A DNA stretch of 64,000 nucleotides from Actinomycetospora chiangmaiensis DSM 45062 (GTDB lineage Bacteria > Actinomycetota > Actinomycetes > Mycobacteriales > Pseudonocardiaceae), in assembly GCF_000379625.1 (NCBI RefSeq), contig NZ_KB903218.1, forward strand, positions 248,001 through 312,000, in the 5' to 3' direction. Positions 3 to 63,247 of the stretch are shown here, one piece after another; positions within the stretch are counted from its first letter, which is position 1, and every line of letters starts with the position of its first letter. The notes beneath the pieces were generated by a model, which was not told the origin of the DNA, made no database searches, and was given only the letters and a program-made list of their open reading frames with translations. The position numbers were made by a program, and so were the translations under genes.

Positions 3-3000
3 GTGTCGGCCGCGCTCGGCCACAGCTTCGGCGAGCTCACCGCACTGTGGGCCGCCGGCTCGCTCACCGACACCGACTTCTTCACGCTCGCCCGGGCGCG
101 GGGTGCCGCGATGGCGCCGACCGGCTCGGGCGACCCGGGGACGATGGCGGCCGTCTCGGCGTCGCGCGACCGGGTCGAGGCGCTGATCGCCGACGCCGGG
201 CTGGACGACGTCGCGGTGTGCAACCACAACGCCTCCGAGCAGGTCGTCGTCGGCGGCGGCACCGAGCAGGTCGAGCGGTTCGTCGCGCGGTGCGGCGAGC
301 AGGGGATCGGCGCGAAGGCGCTGCCGGTCGCCGCCGCGTTCCACACCGCGCACGTGGCGCACGCCGTGGCGCCGTTCCGCGAGGCCGTCGCCGCCGTCGA
401 GATCGCCGAGCCGCGCGTCCCCGTCGTCGCGAACACCGCGGGCGCCGCGTACGGCGCCGACGTCGCGGCGAACCGGGACGTGCTCGTCGGGCAGCTCTCG
501 TCGCCCGTCGAGTTCGTCGCCGGGCTGGAGGCGTTGCGGCCCGCGGCCGGCATCGTCGTCGAGTTCGGCCCGAAGCAGGTGCTCACCGGCCTCGTGCGCC
601 GGGTCCTGGGCGACGAGGTCGTCGCCATCGCGACCGACGCCGGCCCCGTCGGCGACTCCGACCTCGCCCTCGAGCAGGCCGCCGCCCGGCTCGCCGTCCT
701 CGGCGTGCCGCTGTCCGCCCCGGTGCGCGGCGCGGTGCCGGCGCTGCCCGAACGCCGCTCCGGCGGCATGACCGTCACCCTCAGCGGCGCCGAGCACGTC
801 CCGGCCTCCCGGACCGAGGCGTACGCGGCGGCCCTGGCCGACGAGCGGCCGTTGGAGGCCGTCGCGGCGGCCGCCACCACGTCCGCCCCCGCGGTCACCG
901 CTCCCGCCGTGGCCGCTCCCGCCGTCGCCCTGCGCGAGGGGAACCTTCACGCCACAAGAGCGCTCGATTCCTCCCCTCACGGTGGGAGCGCGGCCGCCGT
1001 CGTCCCGAGTGACGGGTCCCCTCGCGCAGTGGAGCAGGCCGTGGGCGCCCCCCGCCCGATCACCCCGGAGGTCCCCGTGCCCGAGACGTCCACCGACGTC
1101 CTCGCCCAGCACGCCGCCCTGCACACCCGCTACCTCGACGGACAGCTCGACCTCGCCCAGCGCCTCGTCGACACCTGGCGGACCGACGCCGGCCCGGACA
1201 CGACCGAGCGTCTGCGCGCCGTCGCCGACCACGCCGACGCGATGTCGCGGGCGCACGTGCGCGCCAACGAGGTGCTGGCCTCCCTGGCGGCGCTCGACGG
1301 CGCGCCGGCGCTCGAGCAGGGCGCGGCGGCCCCGGCAGCGATCGCGGCCGACGTCGTGACCGAAGGGTCCCCTCGCGCCATAGAGCCGGCGGCGGGCGCC
1401 CTTCGCCGGGACGTTCCGCCCGTCGTCGTTCCGAGCGACGGGGCCCCTCGCGCGGTAGAGCCGCTCGTGGGCGCCCCTCGCCACGAGGTGATCGCGACGA
1501 ACGGGCACGCGCCGACGACGCCGTCCACGCCGGAGCCGGCCCCCGAGGCCACCGGGTTCGACACGGCCGCGTTGCGTCAGGTGCTGGTCGAGGTGGTGGC
1601 GGACAAGACGGGCTATCCGGCGTCGATGGTGAACCCGGGGCTGGACCTGGAGGCCGACCTGGGGGTCGACTCGATCAAGCGGGTGCAGGTGTTGGGGGCG
1701 GTGCAGGAGCGCTATCCGCAGCTGCCGGCGATCGGCCCGGAGTCGATGGCCGAGCTGCGCACGCTGGACCAGATCGTCGAGCACTTCGCGGCCGACGTCC
1801 CGGCCGCCCCGGCAGCACCGGCCGTCGGCGGGTTCGACGCCGCCGCGCTGCGGCGGGTGCTCGTCGAGGTGGTGGCCGACAAGACGGGTTATCCGGCGTC
1901 GATGGTGGACCCGGGGCTGGACCTGGAGGCCGACCTGGGGGTCGACTCGATCAAGCGGGTGCAGGTGCTGGGGGCGGTGCAGGAGCGCTATCCGCAGCTG
2001 CCGGCGATCGGCCCGGAGTCGATGGCCGAGCTGCGCACGCTGGACCAGATCGTCGCCCACTTCGCCAGCGAGCCGACCGACACGACCGACACCACCGACA
2101 CCCCGGCCACCCCCGCACCGGCGCCCGCACCCGTCGTCGGGAACGGGGACCTGGGACGGCACGCGGTCGAGCTCGTCGACCTCCCCGACCGGGAGGACGG
2201 GGCGCCCGCCTTCGCCGCCGACCCGGTCGCCGTCCTCGTCGACCGCGGCGGCCCCGAGCCCGACGCGCTGGAGGCCGCGCTGACGGCGGCGGGCTGGACG
2301 GTCCGCCGGGTCGGCCTGCCCGAGACGATCGGGTGCGACTGGCTAAACGCCCACGACGAGCGCACGGTCGACGGCCTCGACGAGGCCCTGACCGGCCGGG
2401 TCGATGCCGTCCTGGTCGCCCTGCGCGACGACGAGGACCTGCCCGGCAGCGTCTGCCAGCTCGCCGACGCGGTGCTGATCGCCGGCGCCGCGAAGACCCC
2501 GCTCACCCGGACCGCCGCGGCCGGTACCCGCGCCGCCTTCGTCACCGTCACCCGGATCGACGGCGGCCTCGGCCTGCTCGGCCACCGCATCGCCGCCGAC
2601 GCAGCGCTCGCCGGGGTCGGCGGCCTCGTCAAGACCCTCGCCCGCGAGGCGCCCGGGCTGTTCTGCCGGGCCCTCGACATCGCCCCCGTCGACGGGCCCG
2701 ACGCGGCCGCCGCCGTCGTGCTCGCGGAACTCGGCGACGCCGCCACCGACGTCGTCGAGGTCGGCGTCGACGCCGAGGGCCACCGGCGCACGGTCCGCGT
2801 CGCCGACCGGCCCGCGCCGGCCACCGGCGACGGCACGCCGGTCGGCGGGGACGACGTCGTCGTGGTCACCGGCGGCGCCCGCGGCGTGACCGCGTCGTGC
2901 GTCCGGGAGCTGGTGCGCCGGGTCGCCCCGGAGGTCGTGCTGCTCGGTCGGACCGCGCTCGCCGAGGAGCCCGCGTGGGCCGTCGGCGTTCCCGACGACG

Positions 3001-4535: not shown

Positions 4536-6516
<1,981 letters not shown>

Positions 6517-8085: not shown

Positions 8086-9871
<1,786 letters not shown>

Positions 9872-9875
<4 letters not shown>

Positions 9876-10429: not shown

Positions 10430-11769
10430 AGAAGGTGCTGATCGCGAACCGCGGCGAGATCGCGGTCCGGGTGATCCGGGCGTGCCGGGACCTCGGGCTC
10501 GGCACCGTCGCCGTGCACTCGGCGGCCGACCGCGACTCGCTGGCCGTGCGGCTGGCCGACGAGTCGGTGCAGGTCGGGCCGGCTGCGGCGCGGGCGAGCT
10601 ACCTCAACATCCCGGCGCTCGTCGAGGCCGCGCGCATCCGGGGCGCCGACGCGGTGCACCCCGGGTACGGCTTCCTCTCCGAGAACCCCGACTTCGCCGA
10701 GGTGTGCACGGCCGAGGGCCTGACCTTCGTCGGGCCTCCCGTCCCGGTGATCGAGGCGCTGGGGGACAAGGCCCGCGCCCGGGCCACCGCGATCGAGGCC
10801 GGGCTGCCGCTGCTGCCCGGCTCCCGCGGCGAGCTCGCCGACGCCGACGCCGCCCAGACGCTCGCCGACGAGATCGGCTACCCGGTCATCATCAAGGCGG
10901 TCGCCGGCGGGGGCGGGCGCGGGATGGCGGTGGTGCGCCGCGCGGCGGACGTCCCACGCGCCTGGGCCGAGACCCGCGCCGCGGCCGTCGCCGTGTTCCG
11001 CGACGGCCGCCTGTTCCTGGAGCGGTACCTGGACTCCGCCCGCCACGTCGAGGTGCAGATCCTCGCCGATGCGCACGGCCACGCGGTCCACCTCGGGACC
11101 CGCGACTGCACCCTGCAGCGCCGGCACCAGAAGCTCGTCGAGGAGTGCCCGGCCCCGGCCCTGCCGCCGTCGTTCCTCGCCGAGATCGCCGACGCCGCCG
11201 TGCGCATGGTGCAGGCGTCGGGCTACGTGGGCGCGGGGACCGTGGAGTTCCTCGTCGACCCCACGATCCCGGCGTTCTTCTTCATGGAGGTCAACTGCCG
11301 GCTGCAGGTCGAGCACCCGGTCACCGAGATCGCGACCGGGATGGACCTCGTCGCCGAACAGCTGCGGATCGCGGCGGGGGAGCCGCTCGGGTACACCCAG
11401 GCCGACCTGGTGGTCCGCGGCGCCGCCCTCGAATGCCGCATCAACTGCGAGGACCCGGCCCGCGGCTTCGTCCCGACGCCCGGCCTCATCGCACGGTGCG
11501 ACCTGCCCGCCGGGCCGTTCGTGCGCGTCGACACCCACGTGCACGCCGGGTACCGGGTGCCGGCGGCCTACGACTCGCTGCTAGCGAAGGTCGTCGTCTG
11601 GGCCCCCGACCGCGAGCGCGCCCTGGCCCGGATGCGCGGCGCCCTGTCCGAGGTCCGCATCGAGGGCCCAGGCATCGCGACGACGGCGGGCTTCCTGCGC
11701 GACCTGCTCGACCACCCCCGCGTCGTCGCGGTGGAGCACGACACCTCGACGGTGGCTGACGCCATGTGA
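10426..11769 (+). CDS. accC: Biotin carboxylase subunit of acetyl-CoA carboxylase
   Basis: 447 residues from a GTG overlapping the accB stop (gtga). The protein opens with the canonical [23 protein letters not shown] and has HPGYGFLSENPDFAEVC, the glycine-rich ATP-grasp loop AGGGGRGM, and EVNCRLQVEHPVTE near the catalytic site. It carboxylates biotin on AccB using ATP and bicarbonate. Together with accDA and accB this completes a three-gene acetyl-CoA carboxylase inside the PUFA-like locus. The stop codon lies inside the first of two 40-bp hairpins, so the next lipid gene (desaturase) is separated from it by an antisense cassette. Confidence 0.95.
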   Translation: MKKVLIANRGEIAVRVIRACRDLGLGTVAVHSAADRDSLAVRLADESVQVGPAAARASYLNIPALVEAARIRGADAVHPGYGFLSENPDFAEVCTAEGLTFVGPPVPVIEALGDKARARATAIEAGLPLLPGSRGELADADAAQTLADEIGYPVIIKAVAGGGGRGMAVVRRAADVPRAWAETRAAAVAVFRDGRLFLERYLDSARHVEVQILADAHGHAVHLGTRDCTLQRRHQKLVEECPAPALPPSFLAEIADAAVRMVQASGYVGAGTVEFLVDPTIPAFFFMEVNCRLQVEHPVTEIATGMDLVAEQLRIAAGEPLGYTQADLVVRGAALECRINCEDPARGFVPTPGLIARCDLPAGPFVRVDTHVHAGYRVPAAYDSLLAKVVVWAPDRERALARMRGALSEVRIEGPGIATTAGFLRDLLDHPRVVAVEHDTSTVADAM

Positions 11770-11805
11770 GCACTTTCCGTGGCTATGGCCACGGCAAGTG
11801 CTCAC
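11766..11805. repeat. 40-bp hairpin, family A copy 1
   Basis: Arms GTGAGCACTT(T/G)CCGTGGC with one mismatch and a short loop. It overlaps the stop of accC and encodes the last residues (CEHLPWP) of the antisense gene. It is nearly identical to 12788-12827. Confidence 0.95.
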
Positions 11806-12787: not shown

Positions 12788-12827
12788 GTGAGCACTTTCC
12801 GTGGCTCCAGCCACGGAAAGTGCTCAC
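12788..12827. repeat. 40-bp hairpin, family A copy 2
   Basis: Perfect 18-base arms (GTGAGCACTTTCCGTGGC) with a four-base loop. It mirrors the copy at 11766-11805 on the other side of the antisense gene. Confidence 0.95.
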
Positions 12828-40450: not shown

Positions 40451-40500
40451 GCGTCAGCGGTGGCACACGGTGGACGTCGAGCGTCAGCAGCGGCACACGG
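40451..40500. repeat. Repeat family C, copy 1
   Basis: Contains GTCAGCGGTGGCACACGG and a second GTCAGCAGCGGCACACGG spaced by GACGTCGAGC. It matches 47477-47529, where one half is inverted to make a perfect hairpin. It lies between the arsR start and the hydrolase promoter. Confidence 0.75.
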
Positions 40501-43796: not shown

Positions 43797-44744
43797 GTGA
43801 ACCAGAACGTACACCGAGATCGTCGTCAGGGAACCCCCGTCGCCCTGGTCGCCGCCCTGTTCGGCACGTCGGGGCGCACCGACCTGCCCGGGCCCGCCCT
43901 CGTCGCCCTGCTCGGCGACCTCGGCCTGCGCCCCGACGCCGCCCGCCGCGCCCTCGCCCGGATGCGCGACGCCGGGCAGTTGACCACCACGCGGCGCGGC
44001 CGTCGGGTCGACCACCACCTCGCCGGCGCCTTCGGGGCCTCGGTGCTGCGGCTGCGCGACGACCGCGGGACCCCGCCGCCCTGGGACGGGGCGTTCCACA
44101 CGCTGCTGCACCACGTGCCCGAGTCCGCCCGCCCCTACCGCGACCGGCTGCGACGGGCCGCCGTCCTCGTCGGTTACGGCCCCTGGCAGCCCGGAGTCCT
44201 CATCAGCCCGGTCGACCGCTCCGCCGGGCTGCGCGAGGTCCTCGCGGACGTCCCGCCGGACGCGTCGGTGGTGCTCGGGCGCCTCGTTCCCGACGACGGG
44301 TGGGTGCCGGCGGGTGCGAACGGCGCCGTTCTCCCGTCGAGTGGCAGCGACGCGCCATCGACGTCGGAGAGCTCGCGTGACGACGGCGCGCCGCACGCCT
44401 CGGGCGGGAGCAGCGGGACATCGTCCACGACGGTCGCGGCCGCGATGGCCCGGCGGGCGTGGTCCCTCGACGCGGTGGCCGACGACCTGCGCGCCCACCA
44501 CGCGCGGTTGGTGGCCCTCCTGGACCGTCCGGTCCCGGACGACGGCGCCCTCGCGCTGCGCCGCCTCTCCGACGCCACCGGCCCCGTGTACGTCGACCTG
44601 CTGCGCGACCCCGGCCTGCCCGTCGAGCTGCTGCCCGCCGACTGGCCCGGCGCGGACCTGCGCGCGGCGCTCGGGCGGGTCGCGGCGGCCTATCTGCCCA
44701 CCGTCGTCGCGCACGTCCACGCCCGGATCGCCGCCGCGGGCTGA
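43797..44744 (+). CDS. PaaX-like transcriptional regulator with palindromic-element insertion
   Basis: 315 residues from GTG 43797; GTG 43776 is an alternative. The N-terminal winged helix (PVALVAALFGTSGRTDLPGPALVALLGDLGLRPDAARRALARMRDAGQL) and DGAFHTLLHHVPESARPYRDRLRRAAVLVGYGPWQPGVLISP match PaaX-type repressors of phenylacetate and related pathways. A Ser-rich segment (about 173-200) interrupts the usual linker and derives from a degenerate family D palindrome. The effector and targets are unknown; no paa genes are nearby. Confidence 0.78.
   Translation: MNQNVHRDRRQGTPVALVAALFGTSGRTDLPGPALVALLGDLGLRPDAARRALARMRDAGQLTTTRRGRRVDHHLAGAFGASVLRLRDDRGTPPPWDGAFHTLLHHVPESARPYRDRLRRAAVLVGYGPWQPGVLISPVDRSAGLREVLADVPPDASVVLGRLVPDDGWVPAGANGAVLPSSGSDAPSTSESSRDDGAPHASGGSSGTSSTTVAAAMARRAWSLDAVADDLRAHHARLVALLDRPVPDDGALALRRLSDATGPVYVDLLRDPGLPVELLPADWPGADLRAALGRVAAAYLPTVVAHVHARIAAAG
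44331..44373. repeat. Palindromic element family D, degenerate copy
   Basis: The reverse strand carries CTGCCACTCGACGGGAGAAC, alignable to CTGCCACTGGACGCCAGCAA of the copies at 46108 and 59023. It is in frame within the PaaX-like gene. The weakest copy of the family. Confidence 0.4.
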
Positions 44745-46107: not shown

Positions 46108-46173
46108 CTCCCTGACAGCGAAGCGTCGTTACTGGCGTCCAGTGGCAGGAACGCCACATCGTCGGACAGGGAG
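46108..46173. repeat. Palindromic element family D, intergenic copy
   Basis: 66 bp with outer arms CTCCCTG and CAGGGAG. The internal 50 bp (46116-46165) match 59023-59072 at 47 of 50 positions. Directly after the LLM gene, it could also act as a transcription terminator. Confidence 0.9.
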
Positions 46174-46274: not shown

Positions 46275-47554
46275 CCGTCACCGTCGTCGGCATCGGCGCC
46301 GACGGGTGGCCCGGTCTCGCCCCGCCCGCGCGCACGGCCTGTGAGAAGGCGGCCGTCGTCCTGGGGGCGCCGCGCCAGCTGGACCTGCTGCCCGCCGTCG
46401 TGACCGCCCGGCGCGAGGAGTGGCCGGCGCCGATGATGCCGTCGTTGCCGAGCCTGCTGGAGCGGCTCGGCGGGGACGAGCTCGTCGTCCTCGCCAGCGG
46501 CGACCCGATGTTCTTCGGGATCGGCACGAGCGTGCTGCGGCTGCGCCCGGACGCGACCGTGGTGCCGCACCCGTCGTCGGTCGCGCTCGCCTGTGCCCGG
46601 CTGGGCTGGGCGGAGCAGGACGTCGTCGTCGTCTCCGCGGTCGGCCGACCGCTCGAGGCGGTGCGCGCGGCGTTGGCGCCGCGCCGCCGGCTGCTCGTGC
46701 TCGCCGACTCGGGCGCGCTGCCCGGTCGCCTCGCCGCCCTGCTCGTCGGCGCCGGGTACGCCGAGGCGCGGTTGAGCGTCCTCGCGTCGCTGGGCGCCGA
46801 GCACGAGACGCGGACCGACGGGGTCGCGGCGCACTGGAACGCCCCCGACGGCGACCCGCTCGCGGTCGTCGCCGTCGACTGCCCCGCCCTTCCCGACGAC
46901 GGGTTGCTCGGCCGGGCCCCCGGCCTCCCCGACGACGCCTACACCCACGACGGCCAGCTGACGAAGGCCGAGATGCGCGCCCTGTCGGTCGCCGCGCTGC
47001 GCCCGTTGCCCGGGCAGCTGCTGTGGGACGTCGGCGGGGGAGCGGGCTCGATCGGCATCGAGTGGTGCCGGGCCGAGCCGACGGCCCGGGCCATCGCCAT
47101 CGAGTCCCGCGACGACCGCGCCGCCCGCATCGCCGAGAACGCCGCGGCGCTCGGGGTGCCGGCGGTGCGGGTCGTGCCGGGCCGGGCGCCCGAGGTGCTG
47201 GCGGGGCTCGAGGCGCCGGACGCCGTCTTCGTCGGCGGCGGAGTGTCGGCGCCGGGGATGCTCGAGGCCTGTCGCCGGGCGCTGCGCCCCGGCGGGCGGC
47301 TCGTCGCCAACGCCGTGACCCTCGAGGGCGAGGCGGCCCTCGCGGCCGCGCGCGCCGAGTACGGCGGCGAGGTCCGGCGGATCGCCGTCTCGCGCGGCCG
47401 ACCCGTGGGCCGCTACCTGGGGTGGAAGGCCCTCGCGCCCGTGACGCAGTGGGTGCTGCACGTGGGCGTGCGCAGTGTCAGCGGTGGCACACGGCCGACA
47501 TCCGACGTCAGCGGTGTGCCACCGCTGACCCCGCCCCCCTGGAGACAGCAGTGA
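46271..47554 (+). CDS. cobL: Precorrin-6Y C5,15-methyltransferase (decarboxylating)
   Basis: 427 residues. N-terminal CbiE-like tetrapyrrole methylase (GIGADGWPGLAP, LASGDPMFFGIG) and C-terminal CbiT domain with SAM motif LLWDVGGGAGSIGIEW and ESRDDRAARIAENAA. It methylates C5 and C15 and decarboxylates the acetate side chain at ring C in aerobic cobalamin synthesis. The natural end is near PVTQWVLHV; the last 25 or so residues (VSGGTRPTSDVSGVPPLTPPPWRQQ) come from a perfect palindromic element. It overlaps cobM (gtga). Confidence 0.93.
   Translation: MTVTVVGIGADGWPGLAPPARTACEKAAVVLGAPRQLDLLPAVVTARREEWPAPMMPSLPSLLERLGGDELVVLASGDPMFFGIGTSVLRLRPDATVVPHPSSVALACARLGWAEQDVVVVSAVGRPLEAVRAALAPRRRLLVLADSGALPGRLAALLVGAGYAEARLSVLASLGAEHETRTDGVAAHWNAPDGDPLAVVAVDCPALPDDGLLGRAPGLPDDAYTHDGQLTKAEMRALSVAALRPLPGQLLWDVGGGAGSIGIEWCRAEPTARAIAIESRDDRAARIAENAAALGVPAVRVVPGRAPEVLAGLEAPDAVFVGGGVSAPGMLEACRRALRPGGRLVANAVTLEGEAALAAARAEYGGEVRRIAVSRGRPVGRYLGWKALAPVTQWVLHVGVRSVSGGTRPTSDVSGVPPLTPPPWRQQ
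47477..47529. repeat. Palindromic element family C, copy 2 (in cobL tail)
   Basis: Perfect 16-bp arms GTCAGCGGTGGCACAC and GTGTGCCACCGCTGAC around a 21-base loop. It encodes the CobL C-terminal tail in frame. Matches 40451-40500. Confidence 0.9.
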
Positions 47555-48294
47555 CCGTCCGCTTCGTCGGCGCGGGCCCCGGCGCCGCGGACCTCATCAC
47601 CATCCGCGGGCTGCGGGCGATCGCGACCAGCCCGGTCTGCCTCTACGCCGGCTCGCTCGTGCCCGAGGACCTGCTCGCGCAGTGCCCGCCGCACGCCCAC
47701 AAGGTCGACACCGCGCGCCTGACGCTCGACGAGATCGTCGCCGAGCTCGTCGCCGCCGACGCCGCGGGCCACGACGTCGCCCGCCTGTGCTCCGGCGACC
47801 CCGCGGTGTTCTCCGCCGTCGCCGAGCAGACCCGTCGGCTCGACGAGGCCGGGATCGCCTGGGAGATCGTGCCCGGTGTCCCCGCGTTCTCCGCCGCGGC
47901 GGCCGCGCTGCGCACCGAGCTGACCGTGCCGGGCGTCGGGCAGTCGGTGGTCCTCACCCGTGACGCCGCGAACGCCACGCCGATGCCCGACGGCGAGTCG
48001 CTCGACGTCTGGGCCGCCACCGGCGGCACGCTCGTGCTGCACCTGGCCGTGCAGCGGTGCGCGGAGGTCGTCGCGACCCTGCGGCAGCACCGCCCGCCCC
48101 ACGAGCCGGTGGCCGTCGTCGCCCGGGCCTCCCGCGACGACGAGCTCGTCCTGCGCGGCACGCTCGCCGACATCGCGGATCAGGTCGAGGCGGCCGGCGT
48201 GACGCGGACGGCCGTGATCGTGGTCGGACCCGTCGTCGGGACCCGTGACGGCTGCGAGTCGCACCTCTACTCGGCGCAGCGCGTTCGGCCGTGA
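47551..48294 (+). CDS. cobM: Precorrin-4 C11-methyltransferase
   Basis: 247 residues. RFVGAGPGAADLITIRGL and YAGSLVPEDLLAQCP at the N-terminus, LCSGDPAVFSAVAEQ and VPGVPAFSAAAAALRTELTVPG mark a CobM/CbiF tetrapyrrole methylase. It transfers a SAM methyl to C11 of precorrin-4. GTG overlaps the cobL stop; the end overlaps cobK (gtga). Confidence 0.94.
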   Translation: MTVRFVGAGPGAADLITIRGLRAIATSPVCLYAGSLVPEDLLAQCPPHAHKVDTARLTLDEIVAELVAADAAGHDVARLCSGDPAVFSAVAEQTRRLDEAGIAWEIVPGVPAFSAAAAALRTELTVPGVGQSVVLTRDAANATPMPDGESLDVWAATGGTLVLHLAVQRCAEVVATLRQHRPPHEPVAVVARASRDDELVLRGTLADIADQVEAAGVTRTAVIVVGPVVGTRDGCESHLYSAQRVRP

Positions 48295-49085
48295 GCGAGC
48301 CGGCCCCACCTGACGAACGGGTCGTTCGTGCATATAGAGGCCACGAACGACCCGTTCGTCAGAGACGGCGGGTCCTCGTCCTCGGCGGCACCGCGGAGGC
48401 CCGGGGCCTGGCCGACACCCTGACCGCCCGGGGACACGCGGTCACCACCTCGCTCGCCGGCCGCACCCGGGACCCGCGCCTGCCCGCCGGCGAGGTGCGC
48501 ACCGGCGGGTTCGGCGGCGTCGAGGGCCTCGTCGCGGCGCTGCACCACGTCGACCTGCTCGTCGACGCCACCCACCCCTTCGCCGCCCGCATGACCGACC
48601 ACGCCGCGCGGGCCGCCGCGGCCACGGGCACGCCGTGGGTGGTGCTGCGCCGCCCCGGTTGGGTCGAGCAGCCCGGCGACCGCTGGCTCCGGGTCCCGAC
48701 GACGGCCGCGGCCGCCGGGATGCTGGGCGACGCGACCGCCGTGTTCCTCGCGATCGGGCGCCAGGGCGTGCACCACTTCGCGGGCCTCGCGAACGTCCGG
48801 CTCGTCCGTGCCATCGAACCGCCCGACGTGCTCCCGCCACGCGCGCACCTGATCCTGGCGCGCGGCCCGTTCGCACTCCACGACGAACGCGCGCTGCTCG
48901 CCGGGCACGGGATCGACACGATCGTCGCGAAGGACTCGGGCGGCGCCACCGAGGCCAAGCTGGTCGCGGCGCGGGAGGCGGGGCTCGTCGTCGTCCTGGT
49001 CGATCGCCCGGCACCGCCCGGGGGAGCGATGGTGGTCGCCGACGTCGACGGTGCCGTCGGGTGGGTGGAGCGCGCCCCGGCGTAG
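48291..49085 (+). CDS. cobK: Precorrin-6A reductase
   Basis: 264 residues. The true domain starts at VLVLGGTAEARGLADTLTARGH (about residue 28), with VDATHPFAARMTDHA and AKDSGGATEAKLVAAREAG near the C-terminus, all CobK features. It reduces precorrin-6A with NADPH. Residues 7-24 are an unusual addition encoded by a perfect 21-base-arm palindrome, giving an N-terminus ERVVRAYRGHERPVRQRR. The order cobL-cobM-cobK with 4-base overlaps is preserved despite this insertion. Confidence 0.92.
   Translation: MSEPAPPDERVVRAYRGHERPVRQRRRVLVLGGTAEARGLADTLTARGHAVTTSLAGRTRDPRLPAGEVRTGGFGGVEGLVAALHHVDLLVDATHPFAARMTDHAARAAAATGTPWVVLRRPGWVEQPGDRWLRVPTTAAAAGMLGDATAVFLAIGRQGVHHFAGLANVRLVRAIEPPDVLPPRAHLILARGPFALHDERALLAGHGIDTIVAKDSGGATEAKLVAAREAGLVVVLVDRPAPPGGAMVVADVDGAVGWVERAPA
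48310..48362. repeat. Perfect palindromic element family B (in cobK N-terminus)
   Basis: 21-base arms beginning CTGACGAACGGGTCG, perfectly complementary, around an 11-base A/T-rich loop (catatagaggc). Degenerate relative at 4799-4848. Confidence 0.95.
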
Positions 49086-54585: not shown

Positions 54586-54588
54586 TTT
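54583..54588 (+). promoter_or_regulatory. TANNNT -10 box for leaderless SDR gene
   Basis: TACTTT followed by six bases and then ATG 54595. It overlaps the edge of the TetR dyad. Confidence 0.55.
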
Positions 54589-54594
54589 GGCGTC

Positions 54595-55458: not shown

Positions 55459-55459
55459 G

Positions 55460-56032
55460 TCACGGAGCCGGCGGAATCAGTCCCCCCATCGCCACGTACG
55501 CGGCGACGGCGGCCCCGGCCAGCTCGTCCCGCAGCGAGGGGTCCTCGTCGATCCGCTCCGCGAAGCGCCGGATCACCCCCGTGATCGCCTCGGAGACCAG
55601 CACCGGGGCCATCACGGGCGCGGCCCGGCCCTGTTCGGCCAGGCGCAGCAGGAACCGGGCGTTGCGCCGGTGCACCCGGTCCAGCAGCTCGTCCTGCACC
55701 GTGGAGTACGCGGCGTCGGTGCGGGCGAGCTGCGCGAGGAGCTCCAGGACGCGGCGGTGCCGCACCGTCAGGTCGAGGTACTCGGTGACGGCCCGGCGGG
55801 CGATGACGAGCGGTTCCTCGGTGTCGCGGACCTCCTGCGCGGCGAGCACGTCGTCGCGCACCCGGGCGACCAGCGCGGCGACGACGTCGGCCTTCCCGCC
55901 CGAGAAGTGCGCGTACACCGTCGGGCGCGTGACCCCGGCGGCCCCGGCCAGCTCGCCGATCGACGCCGCCTCCACCCCGCGGCGCGCGAACACCGCCTCG
56001 GCGCCCGCCAGGATCGCCTCCCGGGTGGTCAC
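55460..56032 (-). CDS. TetR-family regulator of acyl-CoA carboxylase operon
   Basis: 190 residues from GTG 56032, which overlaps the carboxylase stop. HTH GVEAASIGELAGAAGVTRPTVYAHFSGGKADVVAALVARV. It is the last gene of a three-gene operon after an acyl-CoA synthetase and a fused carboxylase, and it probably binds the near-perfect palindrome upstream of that operon (60797-60812). The ligand may be an acyl-CoA, by analogy with other lipid-linked TetR proteins. Confidence 0.88.
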   Translation of the reverse strand: MTTREAILAGAEAVFARRGVEAASIGELAGAAGVTRPTVYAHFSGGKADVVAALVARVRDDVLAAQEVRDTEEPLVIARRAVTEYLDLTVRHRRVLELLAQLARTDAAYSTVQDELLDRVHRRNARFLLRLAEQGRAAPVMAPVLVSEAITGVIRRFAERIDEDPSLRDELAGAAVAAYVAMGGLIPPAP

Positions 56033-59000
56033 CGCGGGTCGACGACGGGACGGCGCGGCGGCAGGGGCCCGTCGGCGGCCGCCAGCGCCCCGAGCACGAC
56101 GGCGGCGGTGTCGGCCGGGTCGATCACGTCGTCGATCTCCACCACCTCCGCCGCCGAGAGCGCCTTGCCCTGCTCGTAGAGGGCGGCGACGAGCTCGTCG
56201 TAGCGGGCCCGACGCGTCCCGTCGTCGGGGAGGGCGGCGAGTTCCTTCGCGTAGCCGAGCCGGACCGCGCCCTCGAGCCCCATGCCGCCGAACTCTCCGC
56301 TGGGCCAGGCGACGGTCGCCACCGGCACCCGCATCGACCCGCCGGCCATCGCCATGGCGCCCAGTCCGTAGGCCTTGCGCAGCACGACGCACACCACCGG
56401 CACGCGCAGGTTCGCCCCGGCCACGAACATCCGGGAGAAGCGGCGCACCGTCGCGGTGGCCTCGGCGTCGGGCCCGACCATGAAGCCCGGGGTGTCGCAC
56501 AGCGAGACGACCGGCAGCCCGCGGGCGTCGCAGAGCTGCAGGAACCGGGCCGCCTTCTCCGCCGCCTCGGCGTCGATGGCGCCGCCGAGCCGCCGCGGGT
56601 CGTTGGCCAGCAGCCCGATCGGCCGGCCCTCGATCCGCGCGAACGCCGTCACGATCCCCACCCCGTACCGCGGCCGCAGCTCCAGCAGCGAGCCGACGTC
56701 GACCAGGCCCTCGACGGCGGCGCGGACGTCGTAGACCCGCAGCCGGTTCTCCGGGACGACGTGGCGCAGCCGGCGCGCGTCGGGACGGTCGCCGGGGACG
56801 ACCCGGTCGAGCGCGAGGTAGCGCCGGGCCACGTCGACGGCCGCCGCCTCGTCGTCGACCAGCACGTCCACGACCCCGTTCGGCACCTGGACTGACGTCG
56901 GCCCGACGTCGTGCGGGTCGACCTCGCCGAGCCCGCCGCCCGCGATCATCGCCGGGCCGCCCATGCCGAGGTTCGCGCCGTCGACGGCGACGACGAGGTC
57001 GGCGCACCCGGCGAGCGCGGCGTTGCCGGCGAAGCAGTAGCCCGCGACCACGGCCACCGTCGGGACCCGGCCGGACAGCTGCGCGAACAGGGCGAACGTG
57101 GGCACGTCGAGCTGGGCGACCGCGATCGTGTCGGTCTCGCCGGGCCGCCCGCCGCCGCCCTCCGCGAACAGGACGACGGGCAGGTCGTGGTCCAGCGCGA
57201 GGTGCAGGGCGCGGTCGGTCTTGGCGTGCGACAGGACGCCTTGTGTGCCCGCGAGCACGGTGTAGTCGTAGGCGAGGACCACGACGCGGCGCCCGTCGAC
57301 CGCGCCGATCCCGGTGACGATCCCGTCGGCCGGGGTGCGTTCGCGCAGGTCCGCGAGTGTGCGCCGCTTCCGCTGGGCGGCCACCGCGAACGCGCCGTAC
57401 TCGACGAACGTGCCCTCGTCGCAGAGGTCGGCCACGTTCTCCCGGGCGGTGCGTCTCCCGGCTTCCCGACGGCGGGTCACGGCGGCCGGGCGGGCCTCGT
57501 CGCGGGTGAGCCGGCGCCGGTCGAGGACCTCGGCGAGGTCGGGGCGGACGTGGTCGGGGTCCGCGGCGCGCTCGCTCGCCGCGGCGCCCGTGTCGTCGCC
57601 CGGCTCGAGGACCGCCAGCACGTCGCCCTCGGCGACCACGTCCCCGACCGCGACGACGACGTCGACGACCGTGCCGCCCGTCGGCGCGCCGACCACGTGC
57701 TCCATCTTCATCGCCTCGAGCACGACGACGGGTGCGGCCGCCGCGACGGTGCGCCCGCTCTCCGCCTCGACGGCGACGACCGTCCCTGCGGTGGTCGCCC
57801 GGAGCTCCGTCCCGTCCGGCGCGAGGGGAGCCCTCGTGCCGTAGGAGCGCTCGGATCCTCCCCTCACGATCTCGGGCAGCAGGCGCTCGACGAGCCCGGT
57901 GTCGGGGGCGAGCACCTCGGGGCGGGCGAGCAGCGCCCGCAGCACCGGGATCGTCGTCGGGACCCCGTCGAGGTCGAACGCCGCGAGCGCCCGGTCGAGG
58001 TGGGCGAGGGCAGGGCCGAGGTCGGTGTCGTGCACGACGACCTTGGCCAGCAGCGAGTCGTACCGCGGATCGACGACGAGCCCGACCCGCCCGTGCGTGT
58101 CCACCCGCACCCCCCGGCCGGTCGGTGGGGTGAAGCGCGTGAGGGTCCCGGCGGTGCTGCGCACCGAGGCGTCGGCGCCCAGCGTCTCGGCGTTGACGCG
58201 GGCCTGGACGGCCACGCCCCGCGGGTGGTCGTCGAGCCCGAGCTCGCCGAGCCGTGCCCCGGCGGCGATCCGGAGCGCGGCCACCACCAGGTCGACACCC
58301 AGGACCTCCTCGGTGACCGTGTGCTCCACCTGCAGCCGCGGGTTCACCTCGAGGAACGCGATCTCGGCACCGGCCACGAGGAACTCGACGGTCGCGAGCC
58401 CGCGGAGTCCGGTGGCGGTGCCGAGGGCGTGCGCGTGGGTGTGGAGCCGGGCCCGGACGTCGTCGGGAAGGTCCGGCGCCGGAGCGATCTCGACCATCTT
58501 CTGGTGGCGACGCTGCAGGCTGCAGTCCCGGTCGGCGAGCACGGCCACATCGGTCCCGTCGCCGAGCAGCTGGACCTCGACGTGCCGTGCGCCCTCGAGG
58601 TAGCGCTCGACGAACACCCGGCCGTCGCCGAACGCGGCGCGGGCCTCGGCGGCGGCCGCGCGGCGGGCCTCGTCGAGCTCCGTCCGGTCCCGGACCACCC
58701 GCATGCCGCGGCCCCCGCCGCCGGCCACGGCCTTCACGACGACCGGTGAGGTCCCGTCGTCGTCGAGCACCGGCACCCCGAGCCCGACGGCGAGATCCCG
58801 GGCGCGGGTCTTGTCGCCGAACGCCTCGAGCGTGGCGGGGAAGGGACCGACGAAGGTGATGCCCGCGTCCTCGCACGCGCGCGCAAGGGCCGGGTTCTCG
58901 GAGAGGAACCCGTACCCGGGGTGCACGGCGTCGGCTCCCGACTCCTTCGCGGCCGCGACGACGGCGTCGACGTCGAGGTAGGCGGCCGGTCCGGTGCCGG

Positions 59001-59184
59001 GGAGCGCCCGTACCTCCCGTGGCAGCGAAGCGTCGTTGCTGGCGTCCAGTGGCAGGAAAGCCACACCGTCGGGCGGCGGTTCGTCGGCGGCGTGGACGGC
59101 CACGGACTCCAGCCCGAGGGCCGCGGCGGCGTCGGCGATCCGGACGGCGATCTCGCCGCGGTTGGCGATCAGGACCCGGTGCAC
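56029..59184 (-). CDS. Single-chain acyl-CoA carboxylase (biotin carboxylase-BCCP-carboxyltransferase fusion)
   Basis: 1051 residues. BC domain (1-440: VLIANRGEIAVRIAD, HPGYGFLSEN, AGGGGRGM, EVNPRLQVEHTVTE), biotinyl domain (about 460-530, VLEAMKMEHVVGAP with the biotin Lys) and a full carboxyltransferase (about 545-1040, beta half then alpha half with CDTPGFMVGPDAE). The layout matches single-polypeptide long-chain acyl-CoA carboxylases. The BC N-terminal loop (38-54) and the BC-BCCP junction (about 439-455) contain in-frame palindromic elements of families D and E. Overlaps the TetR gene; substrate range unknown. Confidence 0.92.
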   Translation of the reverse strand: MHRVLIANRGEIAVRIADAAAALGLESVAVHAADEPPPDGVAFLPLDASNDASLPREVRALPGTGPAAYLDVDAVVAAAKESGADAVHPGYGFLSENPALARACEDAGITFVGPFPATLEAFGDKTRARDLAVGLGVPVLDDDGTSPVVVKAVAGGGGRGMRVVRDRTELDEARRAAAAEARAAFGDGRVFVERYLEGARHVEVQLLGDGTDVAVLADRDCSLQRRHQKMVEIAPAPDLPDDVRARLHTHAHALGTATGLRGLATVEFLVAGAEIAFLEVNPRLQVEHTVTEEVLGVDLVVAALRIAAGARLGELGLDDHPRGVAVQARVNAETLGADASVRSTAGTLTRFTPPTGRGVRVDTHGRVGLVVDPRYDSLLAKVVVHDTDLGPALAHLDRALAAFDLDGVPTTIPVLRALLARPEVLAPDTGLVERLLPEIVRGGSERSYGTRAPLAPDGTELRATTAGTVVAVEAESGRTVAAAAPVVVLEAMKMEHVVGAPTGGTVVDVVVAVGDVVAEGDVLAVLEPGDDTGAAASERAADPDHVRPDLAEVLDRRRLTRDEARPAAVTRRREAGRRTARENVADLCDEGTFVEYGAFAVAAQRKRRTLADLRERTPADGIVTGIGAVDGRRVVVLAYDYTVLAGTQGVLSHAKTDRALHLALDHDLPVVLFAEGGGGRPGETDTIAVAQLDVPTFALFAQLSGRVPTVAVVAGYCFAGNAALAGCADLVVAVDGANLGMGGPAMIAGGGLGEVDPHDVGPTSVQVPNGVVDVLVDDEAAAVDVARRYLALDRVVPGDRPDARRLRHVVPENRLRVYDVRAAVEGLVDVGSLLELRPRYGVGIVTAFARIEGRPIGLLANDPRRLGGAIDAEAAEKAARFLQLCDARGLPVVSLCDTPGFMVGPDAEATATVRRFSRMFVAGANLRVPVVCVVLRKAYGLGAMAMAGGSMRVPVATVAWPSGEFGGMGLEGAVRLGYAKELAALPDDGTRRARYDELVAALYEQGKALSAAEVVEIDDVIDPADTAAVVLGALAAADGPLPPRRPVVDPR
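57821..57868. repeat. Palindromic element family E, copy in carboxylase
   Basis: 39 of 48 positions match 934-981, including GAGCGCTCG and TCCTCCCCTCACG. Translated in frame (VRGGSERSYGTRAPLA) at the BC-BCCP junction. Confidence 0.75.
59023..59072. repeat. Palindromic element family D, copy in carboxylase
   Basis: 47 of 50 positions match the intergenic copy at 46116-46165. Encodes VAFLPLDASNDASLP in the loop after the first beta strand pair. AccC at 10426 is about ten residues shorter there. Confidence 0.92.
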
Positions 59185-59185
59185 G

Positions 59186-60760
59186 TCAGCTGTTCCTCGT
59201 CACGCGGATGCCTGCGGCCTCGCGGTCCCAGGTGGTGGGACCGACCCCGGCGTCGCGGAGCAGGTTCTTCTGCACCTTGTGGGTCGGGGTCTTGGGCAGG
59301 GCGTCCGCGACCTCGACGTACCGCGGCACCATGAAGTAGGGCAGCCGGTCGACGAGGAACGCGGTCAGCTCCGCCGGGTCGAGCCCGACGTCGGGCTGGA
59401 GCACCACGACGACCTTGATCTCGTCCTCCGTGAGCGCCGACGGCACCGCGACCACCGCGCTCTCGTAGACGGCGGGGTGCTCGTTGACCGTGCGCTCGAC
59501 CTCGAAGCTGGAGATGTTCTCGCCGCGGCGGCGCAGCGCGTCCTTCATGCGGTCGCAGAAGAAGAAGCGACCGTCGGCGTCGGTGCGGAAGGCGTCGCCG
59601 GTGTGCAGCCAGCCGTCGCGCACGACGCGGGCCGTCTCCTCCGGGCGGCCGTGGTAGCCGGCCATCACGGTGTGCGGCACCTGCGGACGCACCAGGAGCT
59701 CGCCGATCTCGCCCGACCCGACGTCGTGACCCTCGGCGTCGACGAGCCGCAGGTCGTACCCCGCGCGCGGGAAGCCCGCCTCGCCGCCGACCACCGTCTC
59801 CGGCGGCCCGTCGAGCACGGCGCCGATCTCGCTCATGCCGTAGACGGCCGCGAGGTCGACGCCGAACCGACGCCGGAAGGTGGCGACGTCGCTCGCGAGC
59901 GGCGCCATGATCGCGAGCTCGAGCGGGTTGTCGGCGTCGTCGGGGGCGGGGGCACGCTGCGCGAGCAGTTCGGCCATCGCGCCCAGCAGCACGGTGACGG
60001 TGATGCCGTGCTCGCGCACGGTCGGCCAGAACCCGCCGACCGAGAACCCGGGTTCCAGCACGCAGGGGATCGCGTGGATGAGGGCCTGGTAGACGCCGTA
60101 CCACTGGCCGGCGAGGTGGAACACCGGGAGCGTGACCAGCGCCCGATCGCCGGTGTGTGGACGCGCCTGGTGCTCGCGGCTCGCGTAGGTGTAGGCGTGC
60201 GCGTGGGGGACCAGGACGCCCTTGGAGAGCCCGGTCGTCCCGGAGGTGTACATGATCGCGTGCAGCTCGTCGGGCCCGCGGCGGACCGGGCTCGCCGGGG
60301 CGTCCACCGCGTCGAGCGGGACGACGCGGAAGCGTCCCGGCGGCAGGATGTCGCCCGGGTCGCCCCGAACCACCACCGTGCGCAGCGCCGGGACCTCGTC
60401 CGCGACCCGCGCGAGCCGGTCGAGGTAGTGCGCCTCGACGACGAGCGTCTCGGCGCCGCAGTCGCGCAGGACGTGGGCGAGGAACGTGCCCTTGTAGGCG
60501 GTGTTCACGGGGACCTCGACGCCCCCGGTGAGCACGACGCCCAGCCACACGTGGACCGCGTCGAGGGAGTTGTCGAGCAGCAGGGCGACCGGCCGGTCCA
60601 TGCCGGCCGCCAGGCCCCCGCCGAGGCGGAGGGCGCGCTCGACGGCCTGCGCCAGGGTCCAGGTGCCGTCCCGGTCGGTCTGGGTGACGGCGTCCCCGGC
60701 CGCGAGGGCCCGCTCGACCGCCGCCAGCAGGGTTCGGTCCTCGAGTGCGGGCAGGCCCAC
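59186..60760 (-). CDS. Acyl-CoA synthetase (AMP-binding, ATP-dependent)
   Basis: 524 residues from GTG 60760. P-loop-like MYTSGTTGLSKGVLVPHAH, YGMSEIG, GWLHTGDAFR, DRMKDALRRRGENISSFEVE and LPKTPTHKVQKNLL are complete adenylation motifs of crotonobetaine/fatty-acyl-CoA ligases. It makes acyl-CoA, presumably the substrate of the carboxylase encoded next (one-base gap). A TetR operator candidate lies 37 bp upstream. Confidence 0.9.
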   Translation of the reverse strand: MGLPALEDRTLLAAVERALAAGDAVTQTDRDGTWTLAQAVERALRLGGGLAAGMDRPVALLLDNSLDAVHVWLGVVLTGGVEVPVNTAYKGTFLAHVLRDCGAETLVVEAHYLDRLARVADEVPALRTVVVRGDPGDILPPGRFRVVPLDAVDAPASPVRRGPDELHAIMYTSGTTGLSKGVLVPHAHAYTYASREHQARPHTGDRALVTLPVFHLAGQWYGVYQALIHAIPCVLEPGFSVGGFWPTVREHGITVTVLLGAMAELLAQRAPAPDDADNPLELAIMAPLASDVATFRRRFGVDLAAVYGMSEIGAVLDGPPETVVGGEAGFPRAGYDLRLVDAEGHDVGSGEIGELLVRPQVPHTVMAGYHGRPEETARVVRDGWLHTGDAFRTDADGRFFFCDRMKDALRRRGENISSFEVERTVNEHPAVYESAVVAVPSALTEDEIKVVVVLQPDVGLDPAELTAFLVDRLPYFMVPRYVEVADALPKTPTHKVQKNLLRDAGVGPTTWDREAAGIRVTRNS

Positions 60761-60796
60761 GGTCGTCCCCTCCCACGGCGGCGTGTCGGACCGGAC

Positions 60797-60812
60797 TTTA
60801 CAGCGCTGTCAA
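60797..60812. promoter_or_regulatory. TetR operator candidate for acyl-CoA synthetase operon
   Basis: TTTACAGCGCTGTCAA, palindromic in 7 of 8 pairs, with a perfect ACAGCGCTGT core. On the - strand it includes TTGACA. Located in the divergent gap between the operon and the TPR gene. Confidence 0.55.
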
Positions 60813-60872
60813 GTGTGGGAGAGGCGCGCAACCACCTCGACACGGATGCGGCCCAGGAGGTGCAATCGTCCC

Positions 60873-61709
60873 GTGAGCAGCACGGATGCCCCCGACACGA
60901 CGCCGTCGTCGGAGTTCTACCTCGACCTGGCGCTCAGGACGGTGGAGCGCGCGCGGGAACTGGCCGACGCCGACGAGCGTCCGGACCTGTACGGCGTGAT
61001 CCTCCACGACATGGCCGAGCTCTACGAGGCGACCGGTCGGGAGTCCGAGGCGGTCGACCTCTACCGACGGTCCGCCGCGGCCAAGCGCCGACGGTCCGCC
61101 ACGGCCGATCTCCTCGTGACGCTCCAGACGCTCGCCTCCCGCCTCATCGACCGCGCGCAGTTCGACGAGGCACGTGCCGTGACCGAGGAGGCGGCCGAGC
61201 TCATCGGCCGGTCGGGCGACATGAGCCCCGCCACGCGCGCCGGCCGCGCCTTCAGCCTCGGCGTCCTCTACGACCGCCTCGGCGACTCCGGGGAGGAGGG
61301 CGCCCACCGGAAGGCCCTCGAGGCGTTCGAACTCTCCCTGTCGCTCTACGACGGCGACACCGAACCCGCGGCGTGCGCGAACGCGCTGCGGGAGGTCGGA
61401 CGGCTGCAGCTGCTCCTCGGGCACGAGCAGGACGCGGTCGAGAGCCTCTCCGAGGCCGTGCAGTTCTACGAGCACGACGGTGACCGGGACGGGCAGGTCG
61501 TGGTGCTGATCGACCTCGGACGCCTCTACCAGCGCCTGGCCGAGCAGAGTGCGTCGCGCACGCTGGTGCCCGCGCCGCGGGTGCCGGCCGACGACGTGCC
61601 CCCGGAGCCGCCGGCGGAGGGCGACGAGGACGGCGACGGGGACGGCGACGAGGACGTGCCGGCAGTGCCCGACGCCTCCGACCTCGATCCGGCGACGACC
61701 GCCCGCTGA
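60873..61709 (+). CDS. TPR-repeat protein with acidic tail
   Basis: 278 residues from GTG 60873, with aggagg 12 bases upstream. Several TPR-like helix pairs (about 20-210: YGVILHDMAELYEATGRESEAVDLYRRSAAAKR and similar). The C-terminal 45 residues are Pro/Asp/Glu-rich (EGDEDGDGDGDEDV). TPR folds mediate protein contacts; no enzymatic domain is present. It is divergent from the acyl-CoA synthetase operon and could share its operator. Function unknown. Confidence 0.75.
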   Translation: MSSTDAPDTTPSSEFYLDLALRTVERARELADADERPDLYGVILHDMAELYEATGRESEAVDLYRRSAAAKRRRSATADLLVTLQTLASRLIDRAQFDEARAVTEEAAELIGRSGDMSPATRAGRAFSLGVLYDRLGDSGEEGAHRKALEAFELSLSLYDGDTEPAACANALREVGRLQLLLGHEQDAVESLSEAVQFYEHDGDRDGQVVVLIDLGRLYQRLAEQSASRTLVPAPRVPADDVPPEPPAEGDEDGDGDGDEDVPAVPDASDLDPATTAR

Positions 61710-61723
61710 CGGCGGGTGGCCGG

Positions 61724-63247
61724 CTACGGGTAGCGGCGGGGGCTGAACACGCGCTCGCCCACCCACCGCGTCTGCGACGAGCCGACGATCAGCAGCGTGC
61801 GCATGTCGATCTCGGACGGCTCCAGCGCGCCGAGCTCGACCACCCGCACCGACTCCGCCGGCCCGTCGACGTCGCGTCCGACGATCACCGGCGTCGTCTC
61901 GTCGCGGTACTTGAGCAGGATCTCCTTGGCCGCCTCGACCTGCCAGGTGCGGGACCGGGACGCGGGGTTGTAGAGCGCGATCACCATGTCGGCGTCGGCC
62001 ACCGCGGCGAGGCGGCGCGCCACGACGTCCCACGACTTCAGCCGGTCGGACAGGCTGATCGTCGCGTAGTCGTGGCCGAGCGGGGCGCCGATCCGGGCGG
62101 CCACGGCGTGCGCCGCGGTGACGCCCGGAAGCACGCGGACCTCGACGTCGGGGTAGTCCTCCGCCGCCACCTCGACGACGGCCGACGCCATCGCGAAGAC
62201 CCCCGGGTCCCCCGAGGAGACGACCGCGACCCGTCGTCCGGAACGGGCGAGATCCAGCGCGAAGGCGGCCCGTTCGGACTCGACCTTGTTGTCCGACCCG
62301 TGGACCCGCTGGCGCGGGTTCACCGGCACGCGCGCGACGTAGGTGGTGTACCCAATGACGTCGTCCGCGGCCGCGAGCGCGCTGAACGCCTCGGGCGTCA
62401 GCCGGTCGCGGCTGCCGGGGCCGAGGCCGACGACGGTGACGAGGCCGGTCGACGGTGTGGGTTCACTGCCACTGGGTGCACGCAGTGACGCGTTGCTTGC
62501 ACCGGAGGTGCCGTCCGCCCGCGCCCGCTCCGTCGTCGCCACGTGCACCCGCGAGGGCACGATCCCGACGCTGAAGTACGGCACCGACGCCGGGTCCACG
62601 TCCTCCAGCAGGCCCTGGCGTTCCTCGGCCTGGCTCGCCCGCTCGACGTAGCGGGCCTCGTCGGCGCGCCCGGCGACCCGCATCGCCGTGCGAACACCCG
62701 TGAACGTGCGGCCGAGCTTCATCACGGCTGCCGCGTCGGTGTCGGCCAGCCGCCGCGCGAGCTCGTCGGGCGGGAGCGTGCCGGGGAGCACGGTGAGGAC
62801 CTCGTCGCGCTCCACCAGGGGCGTCCCGAGCGTGGCGGCGGCGGCCGACACGCTGGTCACCCCGGGCACGACCTCGGCCGTATAGCGGTGCGCCAGCCGT
62901 TTGTGCAGATGCATGTACGACCCGTAGAAGAACGGGTCGCCCTCGGAGAGCACCACCACGTCGCGGCCGGCGTCGAGGTGCGCGGCCAGGCGGGCGGCGG
63001 CCTCGGTGTAGAAGGCGTCGATCCGGCCCTGGTAGTCGTCGGTGTCCTCGGTGGTCACCGGGTAGGTCAGGGCCTCCTCGATCTGCGTGCCGAGGTACTG
63101 CGCCGCGATCCGCCGCGCGTTCGACCGCCCGTGCCGCGCGCAGTGGTAGGCGACGACGTCGGCGGCGCGGATCAGGTCGACCGCCTTCACCGTCATCAGC
63201 CCGGGATCGCCCGGGCCGACGCCGACGCCGAAGAGGCGGCCGGTCAT
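61724..63247 (-). CDS. cobIJ: Bifunctional precorrin-2 C20- / precorrin-3B C17-methyltransferase
   Basis: 507 residues, ATG overlapping the cobH stop. N-terminal CobI (GVGVGPGDPGLMTVKAVDLIRAAD, SEGDPFFYGSYMHLH) and C-terminal CobJ (VVGLGPGSRDRLTPEAFSALAAADDVIGYTTYV, SSGDPGVFAMASAVVE) are fused as in mycobacteria. It methylates precorrin-2 at C20 and precorrin-3B at C17. The interdomain linker (about 247-266, GASNASLRAPSGSEPTP) is encoded by an inverted family D palindromic element. Confidence 0.94.
   Translation of the reverse strand: MTGRLFGVGVGPGDPGLMTVKAVDLIRAADVVAYHCARHGRSNARRIAAQYLGTQIEEALTYPVTTEDTDDYQGRIDAFYTEAAARLAAHLDAGRDVVVLSEGDPFFYGSYMHLHKRLAHRYTAEVVPGVTSVSAAAATLGTPLVERDEVLTVLPGTLPPDELARRLADTDAAAVMKLGRTFTGVRTAMRVAGRADEARYVERASQAEERQGLLEDVDPASVPYFSVGIVPSRVHVATTERARADGTSGASNASLRAPSGSEPTPSTGLVTVVGLGPGSRDRLTPEAFSALAAADDVIGYTTYVARVPVNPRQRVHGSDNKVESERAAFALDLARSGRRVAVVSSGDPGVFAMASAVVEVAAEDYPDVEVRVLPGVTAAHAVAARIGAPLGHDYATISLSDRLKSWDVVARRLAAVADADMVIALYNPASRSRTWQVEAAKEILLKYRDETTPVIVGRDVDGPAESVRVVELGALEPSEIDMRTLLIVGSSQTRWVGERVFSPRRYP
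62451..62506. repeat. Palindromic element family D, inverted copy in cobIJ linker
   Basis: Aligns to the reverse complement of the 59.0-kb copy at 42 of 56 positions, including GACGGTGTGG and CTGCCACTGG. In frame between the two methyltransferase domains. Confidence 0.7.

Follow-up and report, generated by a model that had tools for sequence, protein, structure and literature searches.

The 64-kb stretch of the Actinomycetospora chiangmaiensis DSM 45062 genome analysed here (hereafter the window; C2:248001-312000 of a 5.86-Mb draft in 31 contigs) carries several families of short palindromic repeats, some of which are translated in frame within proteins. We conclude that these elements are hairpins of gene 3′ ends resembling repetitive extragenic palindromic (REP) sequences, with coding by-products, and are not mainly gene-dwelling. 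An earlier note on the same DNA had put its emphasis on the coding elements; the coding copies are real, but most copies are hairpins at or after stop codons. Moreover, only coding copies had been named, whereas the window also contains intergenic copies of families A (at 11766 and 12788), B (at 40453), and V (at 46113).

Copies were counted by profile searches seeded with the window copies, first in 864 kb and then in 1.664 Mb (28% of the genome), the latter being the sample for all copy counts below. Profiles A2, A3, E, H, T, and D were seeded later from a list of palindromes and from the genome G003 (congeneric genomes are given by such numbers), and S2 was also added. In this sample, 173 copies under 12 profile labels were found, many more than the window holds. 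Twenty were located in called coding sequence (CDS) and 153 in intergenic DNA, comprising 81 between convergent, 61 between tandem, and 11 between divergent genes. Because the gene caller starts CobK further in, a copy at the CobK N-terminus was scored as intergenic, and the figure of 20 is therefore too low by one. The five main families alone accounted for 129 copies (V 59, C 24, S 19, A 14, and B 13), of which 18 were in called CDS and 111 were intergenic (52 convergent, 50 tandem, and 9 divergent); the wider count under 12 labels moved some former C copies to H.

The intergenic copies were strongly associated with gene ends. Convergent gaps made up 114 of the 819 intergenic gaps of at least 50 nt, and the excess of copies in them was pronounced (p 6e-30). 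When the 142 non-divergent intergenic copies were examined, 128 overlapped a stop codon or began within 25 nt of one: 32 lay over a stop, 10 began at 0-6 nt, 77 at 7-20 nt, and 9 at 21-25 nt, with the remaining 14 further away. Family B did not follow this pattern: of 11 intergenic copies, 5 lay between divergent genes. Copies of the five main families contained the stop codons of 17 genes. In tandem gaps, V was read in the sense direction in 19 cases and antisense in 6 (p 0.015). In the 75 nt past the stop, folding energy had a median of -43.9 kcal/mol where an element was present (n=113), compared with -33.9 kcal/mol at intergenic ends without one (n=415) and -31.8 kcal/mol where the next gene begins within 75 nt (n=298). 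Position, orientation, and folding energy together point to hairpins of 3′ ends, which may terminate transcription or protect mRNA 3′ ends.

The elements are about 40-60 bp long. Palindromic symmetry is seen in families A, S, and C. V consists of a 7-bp stem, its 11-nt loop, and then a second, smaller hairpin, and is also present as fully palindromic copies and as inverted dimers. Five such V dimers were found, with a gap of 13-14 nt, and in four of them the first unit had the exact stem TGCAAGC/GCTTGCA; three S dimers had gaps of 18-33 nt. Within families, long stretches of sequence are shared, including the asymmetric parts. The A core was matched 4 times in the window against 0.03 expected, and genome-wide (both strands, up to 2 mismatches) 62 times against 0 for the reversed control. 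Local palindromes with a score of at least 13 numbered 5 in the window and 1, 2, and 1 in three block shuffles. The loop motif TAGA occurred at 13 of 179 palindrome centres against 5.0 in shuffled sequence, 9 of the 179 rows being runs of N. A further comparison (58 palindromes of score at least 15 against 9 after shuffling) was set aside, because N paired with N had counted as a match, in the shuffled sequence as well as in the real one. The window had no match in Rfam at gathering thresholds.

Copies within genes are compatible with translation, because several of their reading frames are open: the mean number of open frames out of six was 4.69 for V, 4.63 for C, and 4.45 for B, compared with 3.95 for shuffled elements, while S (3.94) and A (3.21) were not above that value. 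No significant decay of profile score was seen in coding relative to intergenic copies of V (p 0.39), S (p 0.36), or C (p 0.16), a comparison of little power with 8, 3, and 5 coding copies, respectively. In-frame repeats had been claimed for seven proteins. This was borne out for the polyketide synthase (PKS), the double dehydratase, CobL, the fused carboxylase, CobIJ, and, if GTG 48291 is its start, CobK; for the PaaX-like protein it was not, as none of the five main profiles reached 5 bits there. The view that the repeats fall in linkers, loops, or termini fits the sites tested (modelled in the biotin carboxylase domain only). Likewise, copies of one family are indeed read on different strands, V in CDS being sense four times and antisense four times.

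Relative to homologues, the copies in the carboxylase, CobIJ, and CobN are in-frame acquisitions. At the carboxylase V site, 19 of 24 aligned loci, other genera included, had 43 residues, and 47-54 residues were present in our genome, G001, G003, G007, and G016. Among the best 120 of 7,999 homologues (our own included), 109 had 43 residues, four had 36-40, and seven had 47-54; these seven, again with our own, were all from Actinomycetospora, as were the nearest named homologues. G015, whose genome is rich in S, had 43 residues, and the best matches of G010 and G014, at 60-64% identity, may be paralogues. The net gain of 4-11 residues is smaller than the element, and therefore part of the old loop was replaced. 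In an AlphaFold model of the biotin carboxylase domain (32 sequences; mean predicted local distance difference test score, pLDDT, 91.2), values fell below 50 over three or more consecutive residues in one place only, at 45-52, which lies inside the V copy between the strands 26-32 and 57-61. At the CobN site, V was found in our genome, G001, G003, G010, and G016; an unrelated palindrome (score 17-20) occupied the site in G005, G006, and G009, weakly C-like in two of them (15.8 bits); 38-39 residues and no element were found in G004, G007, and G011; and other or degenerate sequence was present in G002, G012, G013, G015, and G017 (G008 and G014 were unaligned over the site). Outside the genus, 12 of 13 aligned genomes had 37-42 residues and one had 49. 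For the PKS and the double dehydratase, no orthologous region and no orthologue, respectively, was found among the relatives compared. The earlier note had asked whether the repeat segments are precise insertions; at the carboxylase V site this is not so.

Several sites, some of them inside genes and read in frame, held different families in sister species, which is the most striking result. In the CobG-like gene at the right edge of the window (TIGR02435, 105.5 bits, under the cut-off of 234.8), S was present in our genome, G003, and G007, and V in G001 and G016; our genome has a second element, T, in this gene. In an acyl-CoA ligase gene elsewhere in the genome, V was found in our genome, G001, G003, G010, and G016, and B in the same place in G014 (the orthologues of G007 and G015 were missed by the anchor pattern). 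The ligase loop, residues 113-129, was highly variable among Actinomycetospora sequences (L251-L258, P0122-P0157), with V- and B-derived versions. Across the 36 closest aligned homologues (P0122-P0157), the stretch was highly variable, and a few were short (39-45 residues, e.g., P0136, from an Actinomycetospora metagenome-assembled genome). At the CobK site, in-frame reading of C requires the start at GTG 48291, which overlaps the TGA of CobM; G001 and G003 had another imperfect hairpin sequence there and G016 a short remnant, all in frame with VLVL. Some intergenic sites, too, carried differing hairpins in sister species. At the site of the intergenic B copy of the window, G007 had an unrelated palindrome and G001 had nothing. 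A clean insertion of A was found in G016, where our genome, G001, and G003 have 4-6 nt; there, the element provides the gene upstream with a new stop codon, TGA.

Model searches covered 61 genomes, namely 18 of the genus (our own included) and 43 others. The V model matched all 18 genomes of the genus (5 to at least 93 matches) and, weakly, 5 of the 43 others; in our own genome it gave at least 150 matches, some places counting twice since both strands of a palindrome match. A V-core pattern run over named genomes matched only three Actinomycetospora records. The S model gave 65 matches in our genome (both palindrome strands counted) and 18-91 in the group formed by our genome, G001, G003, G007, G010, G014, G015, and G016, compared with 0-4 in the other 10 congeneric genomes. 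The same eight S-rich genomes, and no others of the 18, have a long CobIJ linker (35-45 residues versus 22-27); in these linkers the V profile scored 34-50 bits in five genomes and 13-18 bits in G003 and G007, and had no match in G015. A search with family A over 150 genomes of the order matched our genome only; the sample contained no other congeneric genome and so is uninformative on the genus. S has clearly spread within one Actinomycetospora clade, and the coding copies are clade-specific within the genus; in the other genera compared, the corresponding positions have no copy and the homologues lack these residues. The earlier note's picture of DNA-level repeats tolerated in the coding sequence of an actinobacterium stands, as a feature restricted to a clade within the genus. 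Neither of the two outcomes that the note had named as refuting it occurred: the residues are missing from homologues of other genera, and many further copies exist elsewhere in the genome. It had also known of no described actinobacterial family of this kind, and we likewise found none in the literature searched, most subscription journals being outside its reach.

Among known elements, REPs in the wide sense come closest, shared traits being the closeness to stop codons and the scarcity of divergent copies, B excepted. According to the accessible text of Di Nocera et al. 2013 (PMC3733652), GTAG and CGTC REPs are short hairpins with several families per genome and dimers, and lie mostly <20 bp from the 3′ ends of open reading frames (ORFs), next to convergent or co-oriented genes; some supply a stop codon and a minority are inside ORFs. 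The Actinomycetospora elements share all of this. As further likenesses, the same text reports that recB of two Xanthomonas species carries different REPs at about one site, and that CGTC REPs have no linked transposase. The stems it gives are of 6-13 and 8-9 bp; its list of phyla does not include Actinobacteria, a word absent from its main text. Unlike these REPs, many Actinomycetospora stems are longer than the ranges given there, and at several sites within genes the family differs between sister species. Unlike GTAG REPs, V and S have consensus ends without the terminal GTAG tag (the other families were compared by eye only), and no Y1 transposase of the REP-associated (RAYT) type was matched in our own and 12 congeneric genomes. 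CGTC REPs, as far as their accessible description goes, have a terminal CGTC tag, an 8-9 bp stem with an AT start, and a 4-5 nt loop; V ends ...CATCGTCG but differs in stems and loops, and by eye the other families do not fit.

Likeness to Rickettsia palindromic elements (RPEs), which the earlier note had proposed, was found in part. Palindromic repeats are read in frame in unrelated proteins in both cases, and the carboxylase, CobIJ, and CobN show in-frame acquisition relative to homologues. However, RPEs are about 150 bp long with most copies inside ORFs, according to the accessible text of PMC10969869, whereas the majority of our copies lie outside genes (20 of 173 in CDS, plus CobK) and are far shorter. 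REPs inside genes have already been described outside Rickettsia, in other phyla, in the text accessible from PMC3733652. SPRITE elements, in the available part of their description, consist of an 18 bp duplex with a U-rich tract behind it, are AT-rich, occur in few related species, and have been suggested to be co-opted terminators; shared with them are a dispersed terminator-like hairpin, few related species, and enrichment near the 3′ ends of CDS, whereas the Actinomycetospora elements are GC-rich, of many families, and in some cases coding, and had no U-tract in the copies inspected. REPINs are inverted REP pairs moved by a RAYT. Inverted dimers with fixed spacing are common to both, but most Actinomycetospora copies are single and no RAYT was matched in the genomes searched.

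We therefore consider it probable that the elements are REP-like hairpins of several families which are kept at 3′ ends, copied into new places, and overwritten at occupied sites. Stop-proximal copies would be kept by selection because they act as 3′-end hairpins, either as transcription terminators or in protection of mRNA 3′ ends, and new copies would arrive by some copying process. Copies landing in coding sequence would persist only if the frame is open and the protein is flexible at that point, in a loop, linker, or terminus, giving extra peptides. Occupied sites may be overwritten over time because a site tolerant of one hairpin keeps tolerating, or attracting, others. An extension that we regard as doubtful has gene 3′ ends and exposed loops serving as docking sites, at which unrelated palindromes are swapped by a shape-recognising activity other than Y1; in coding sites this would amount to natural in-frame loop diversification, with species-specific peptides in CobN, the CobG-like protein, CobK, and the acyl-CoA ligase.

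Other origins were weighed against these REP-like hairpins. Mobility of the REPIN/RAYT type, with an inverted two-hairpin dimer as the mobile unit and copying as single-stranded DNA by a Y1 transposase, would account for the V dimers with their constant gap and for the S dimers, and the 3′-end placement is that of GTAG and CGTC REPs in the text accessible from PMC3733652. We nevertheless find it quite improbable: PF01797, the Y1/RAYT domain whose presence the earlier note had proposed as a check, had no match in our own genome (a 31-contig draft) or in 12 congeneric genomes, with 5 congeneric genomes outside the search, and the same search matched 5 of 14 control genomes. Movement in trans as miniature inverted-repeat transposable elements (MITEs), by a host DDE or other transposase with palindrome-like ends, agrees with short, dispersed, inverted-repeat units and seems improbable, since no target-site duplication is visible in the one clean insertion; the transposase search covered PF01797.

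The elements might instead be ordinary selected terminators, GC-rich hairpins alike by convergence and without mobility, with the coding copies as remnants of stop-loss read-through or fusion. Placement past stops, the CobK copy over the CobM stop, the CobL copy at the C-terminus, and hairpins that differ in sequence between sister species at some gene ends all point that way, but this account is decidedly unlikely in view of the long sequence shared within families, asymmetric parts too, the high S counts in just 8 of 18 congeneric genomes, the copies in the carboxylase, CobN, and the ligase, which lie away from gene ends and in both orientations, and the clean insertion in G016. Finally, proline/alanine-rich linkers look repetitive at 75.7% GC, and most ungapped window repeats, including many weak ones, were indeed matches of codon composition; repeats were kept as families only when the profile found further matches. 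As an explanation of the families themselves, such an artefact is scarcely credible: it is refuted for A, S, and V by the A core matches absent from the reversed control and by the numbers of V and S matches in our genome, and is hardly tenable for B and C, though it may apply to the PaaX-like block and S2.

Several observations weigh against the REP-like reading preferred here. In addition to the missing PF01797 match and the missing target-site duplication in the sole clean filled/empty pair (the A insertion in G016), no U-tract or T-run followed the elements in the few copies inspected by eye; hairpin terminators without U-tracts are argued to be common across bacteria in the accessible text of PMC8355165. 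Covariation in helix 1 of V was modest, 11 cells in 3 pairs changing both sides of the stem; 1 of 500 shuffles reached this number of cells and 322 of 500 this number of pairs. The gene calls behind all placement counts came from our own caller. The carboxylase V site is not a precise insertion, part of the old sequence being gone, and the ligase stretch barely exceeds its Streptomyces counterpart in length (mostly 46-47 residues there); simple insertion is therefore not the whole story. The C profile matched the CobK site in G007 (32 bits, in frame with VLVL), and because of this match and because the G001 and G003 hairpins fall under the palindrome cut-off, CobK is weaker evidence for a switch of family. 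In part, the turnover might reflect successive small changes in a single old hairpin and not its replacement, particularly where V variants differ from one another. Outside the genus, the V model gave 14 weak matches in G036, and the S model matched 3 of the 43 genomes (G024 with 10 matches, G053 with 1, and G060 with 1, E 7.7e-13).

With these findings, the known range of palindromic elements within genes widens to an actinobacterium of high GC content and unremarkable genome size. They also tie the coding copies to a far larger population of 3′-end hairpins, which suggests a source for such elements. More interesting than the coding copies alone are the differing families at fixed sites, which offer a comparative system for the movement of REP-like elements without a known transposase and for the question of whether peptides derived from the elements can acquire a use. 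In practice, such insertions will be encountered in gene calling and in the alignment of proteins from Actinomycetospora.

Table. Repeat copies and related features (window positions unless a contig is given).
Feature	Position	Strand	Remarks
S in frame, PKS linker	933..980	+	nhmmer 48 bits, sense
S2 copy 1, PKS linker	991..1056	+	repeat search; 83% identical to copy 3
S2 copy 2, PKS linker	1342..1407	+	repeat search
S2 copy 3, PKS linker	1417..1482	+	1433-1479 by profile; sole S2 counted in 1.664 Mb
C in frame near double dehydratase N-terminus	4799..4844	+	38-39 bits
A palindrome	11766..11805	+	its GTGA gives the stop codon to the gene ending at 11769
A palindrome, intergenic between divergent genes	12788..12827	-	A-core match and profile
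B, intergenic	40453..40498	+	also in G016 and G003
PaaX-like gene block	44325..44401	+	unaligned in G003 and G007, aligned in G001; no family assignable
V, intergenic	46113..46163	+	starts 12 nt past stop codon; G016 shorter there, without V match
B palindrome in frame, CobL C-terminal tail	47478..47529	-	B match also in G016; none in G001, G003, G007
GTGA overlap of CobM stop and CobK start	48291..48294	+	
C palindrome in frame, CobK N-terminus	48310..48362	+	begins 16 nt past CobM stop
S in frame (antisense), linker of biotin carboxylase and biotin carboxyl carrier protein in fused carboxylase	57820..57867	+	S match also in G001, G003, G007, G016
V in frame (antisense), biotin carboxylase N-terminal domain	59020..59070	+	low-confidence loop in model
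V in frame (sense), CobI-CobJ linker of CobIJ	62451..62501	-	profile match
Inverted V dimers	C1:425703, C13:1723, C13:285844, C13:305383, C2:137752		own genome

Coding copies were numerous in the window, which holds 7 of the 20 in 64 of 1,664 kb; this enrichment is post hoc, because the window was chosen for coding copies. The cobalamin region (G000:C2:294271-316902, i.e., window 46271-64000 plus L043) has eight coding copies in about 23 kb, namely B in CobL, C in CobK, S and V in the carboxylase, V in CobIJ, S and T in the CobG-like gene, and V in CobN. This density is far above that in the rest of the sample, the choice of region being post hoc as well.

S2 was tried as a dispersed family and rejected. 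Its profile counted no copy outside the PKS gene in 1.664 Mb, and S2 is therefore probably a local linker repeat of that gene. The PKS also contains two 237-nt repeats (1553-2065, 95% identical), which match its two phosphopantetheine-attachment domains. Single genes were found between inverted V copies at C1:280204-281153, C1:596353-597276, and C1:506616-507335; they were considered as mobile cassettes, but gene layout may account for the arrangement. At 9744-9848, close to the end of the gene 8082-9875, the window has a 15-bp tandem repeat, GCCGGGACCACGCCG, with AGTTP-type coding.

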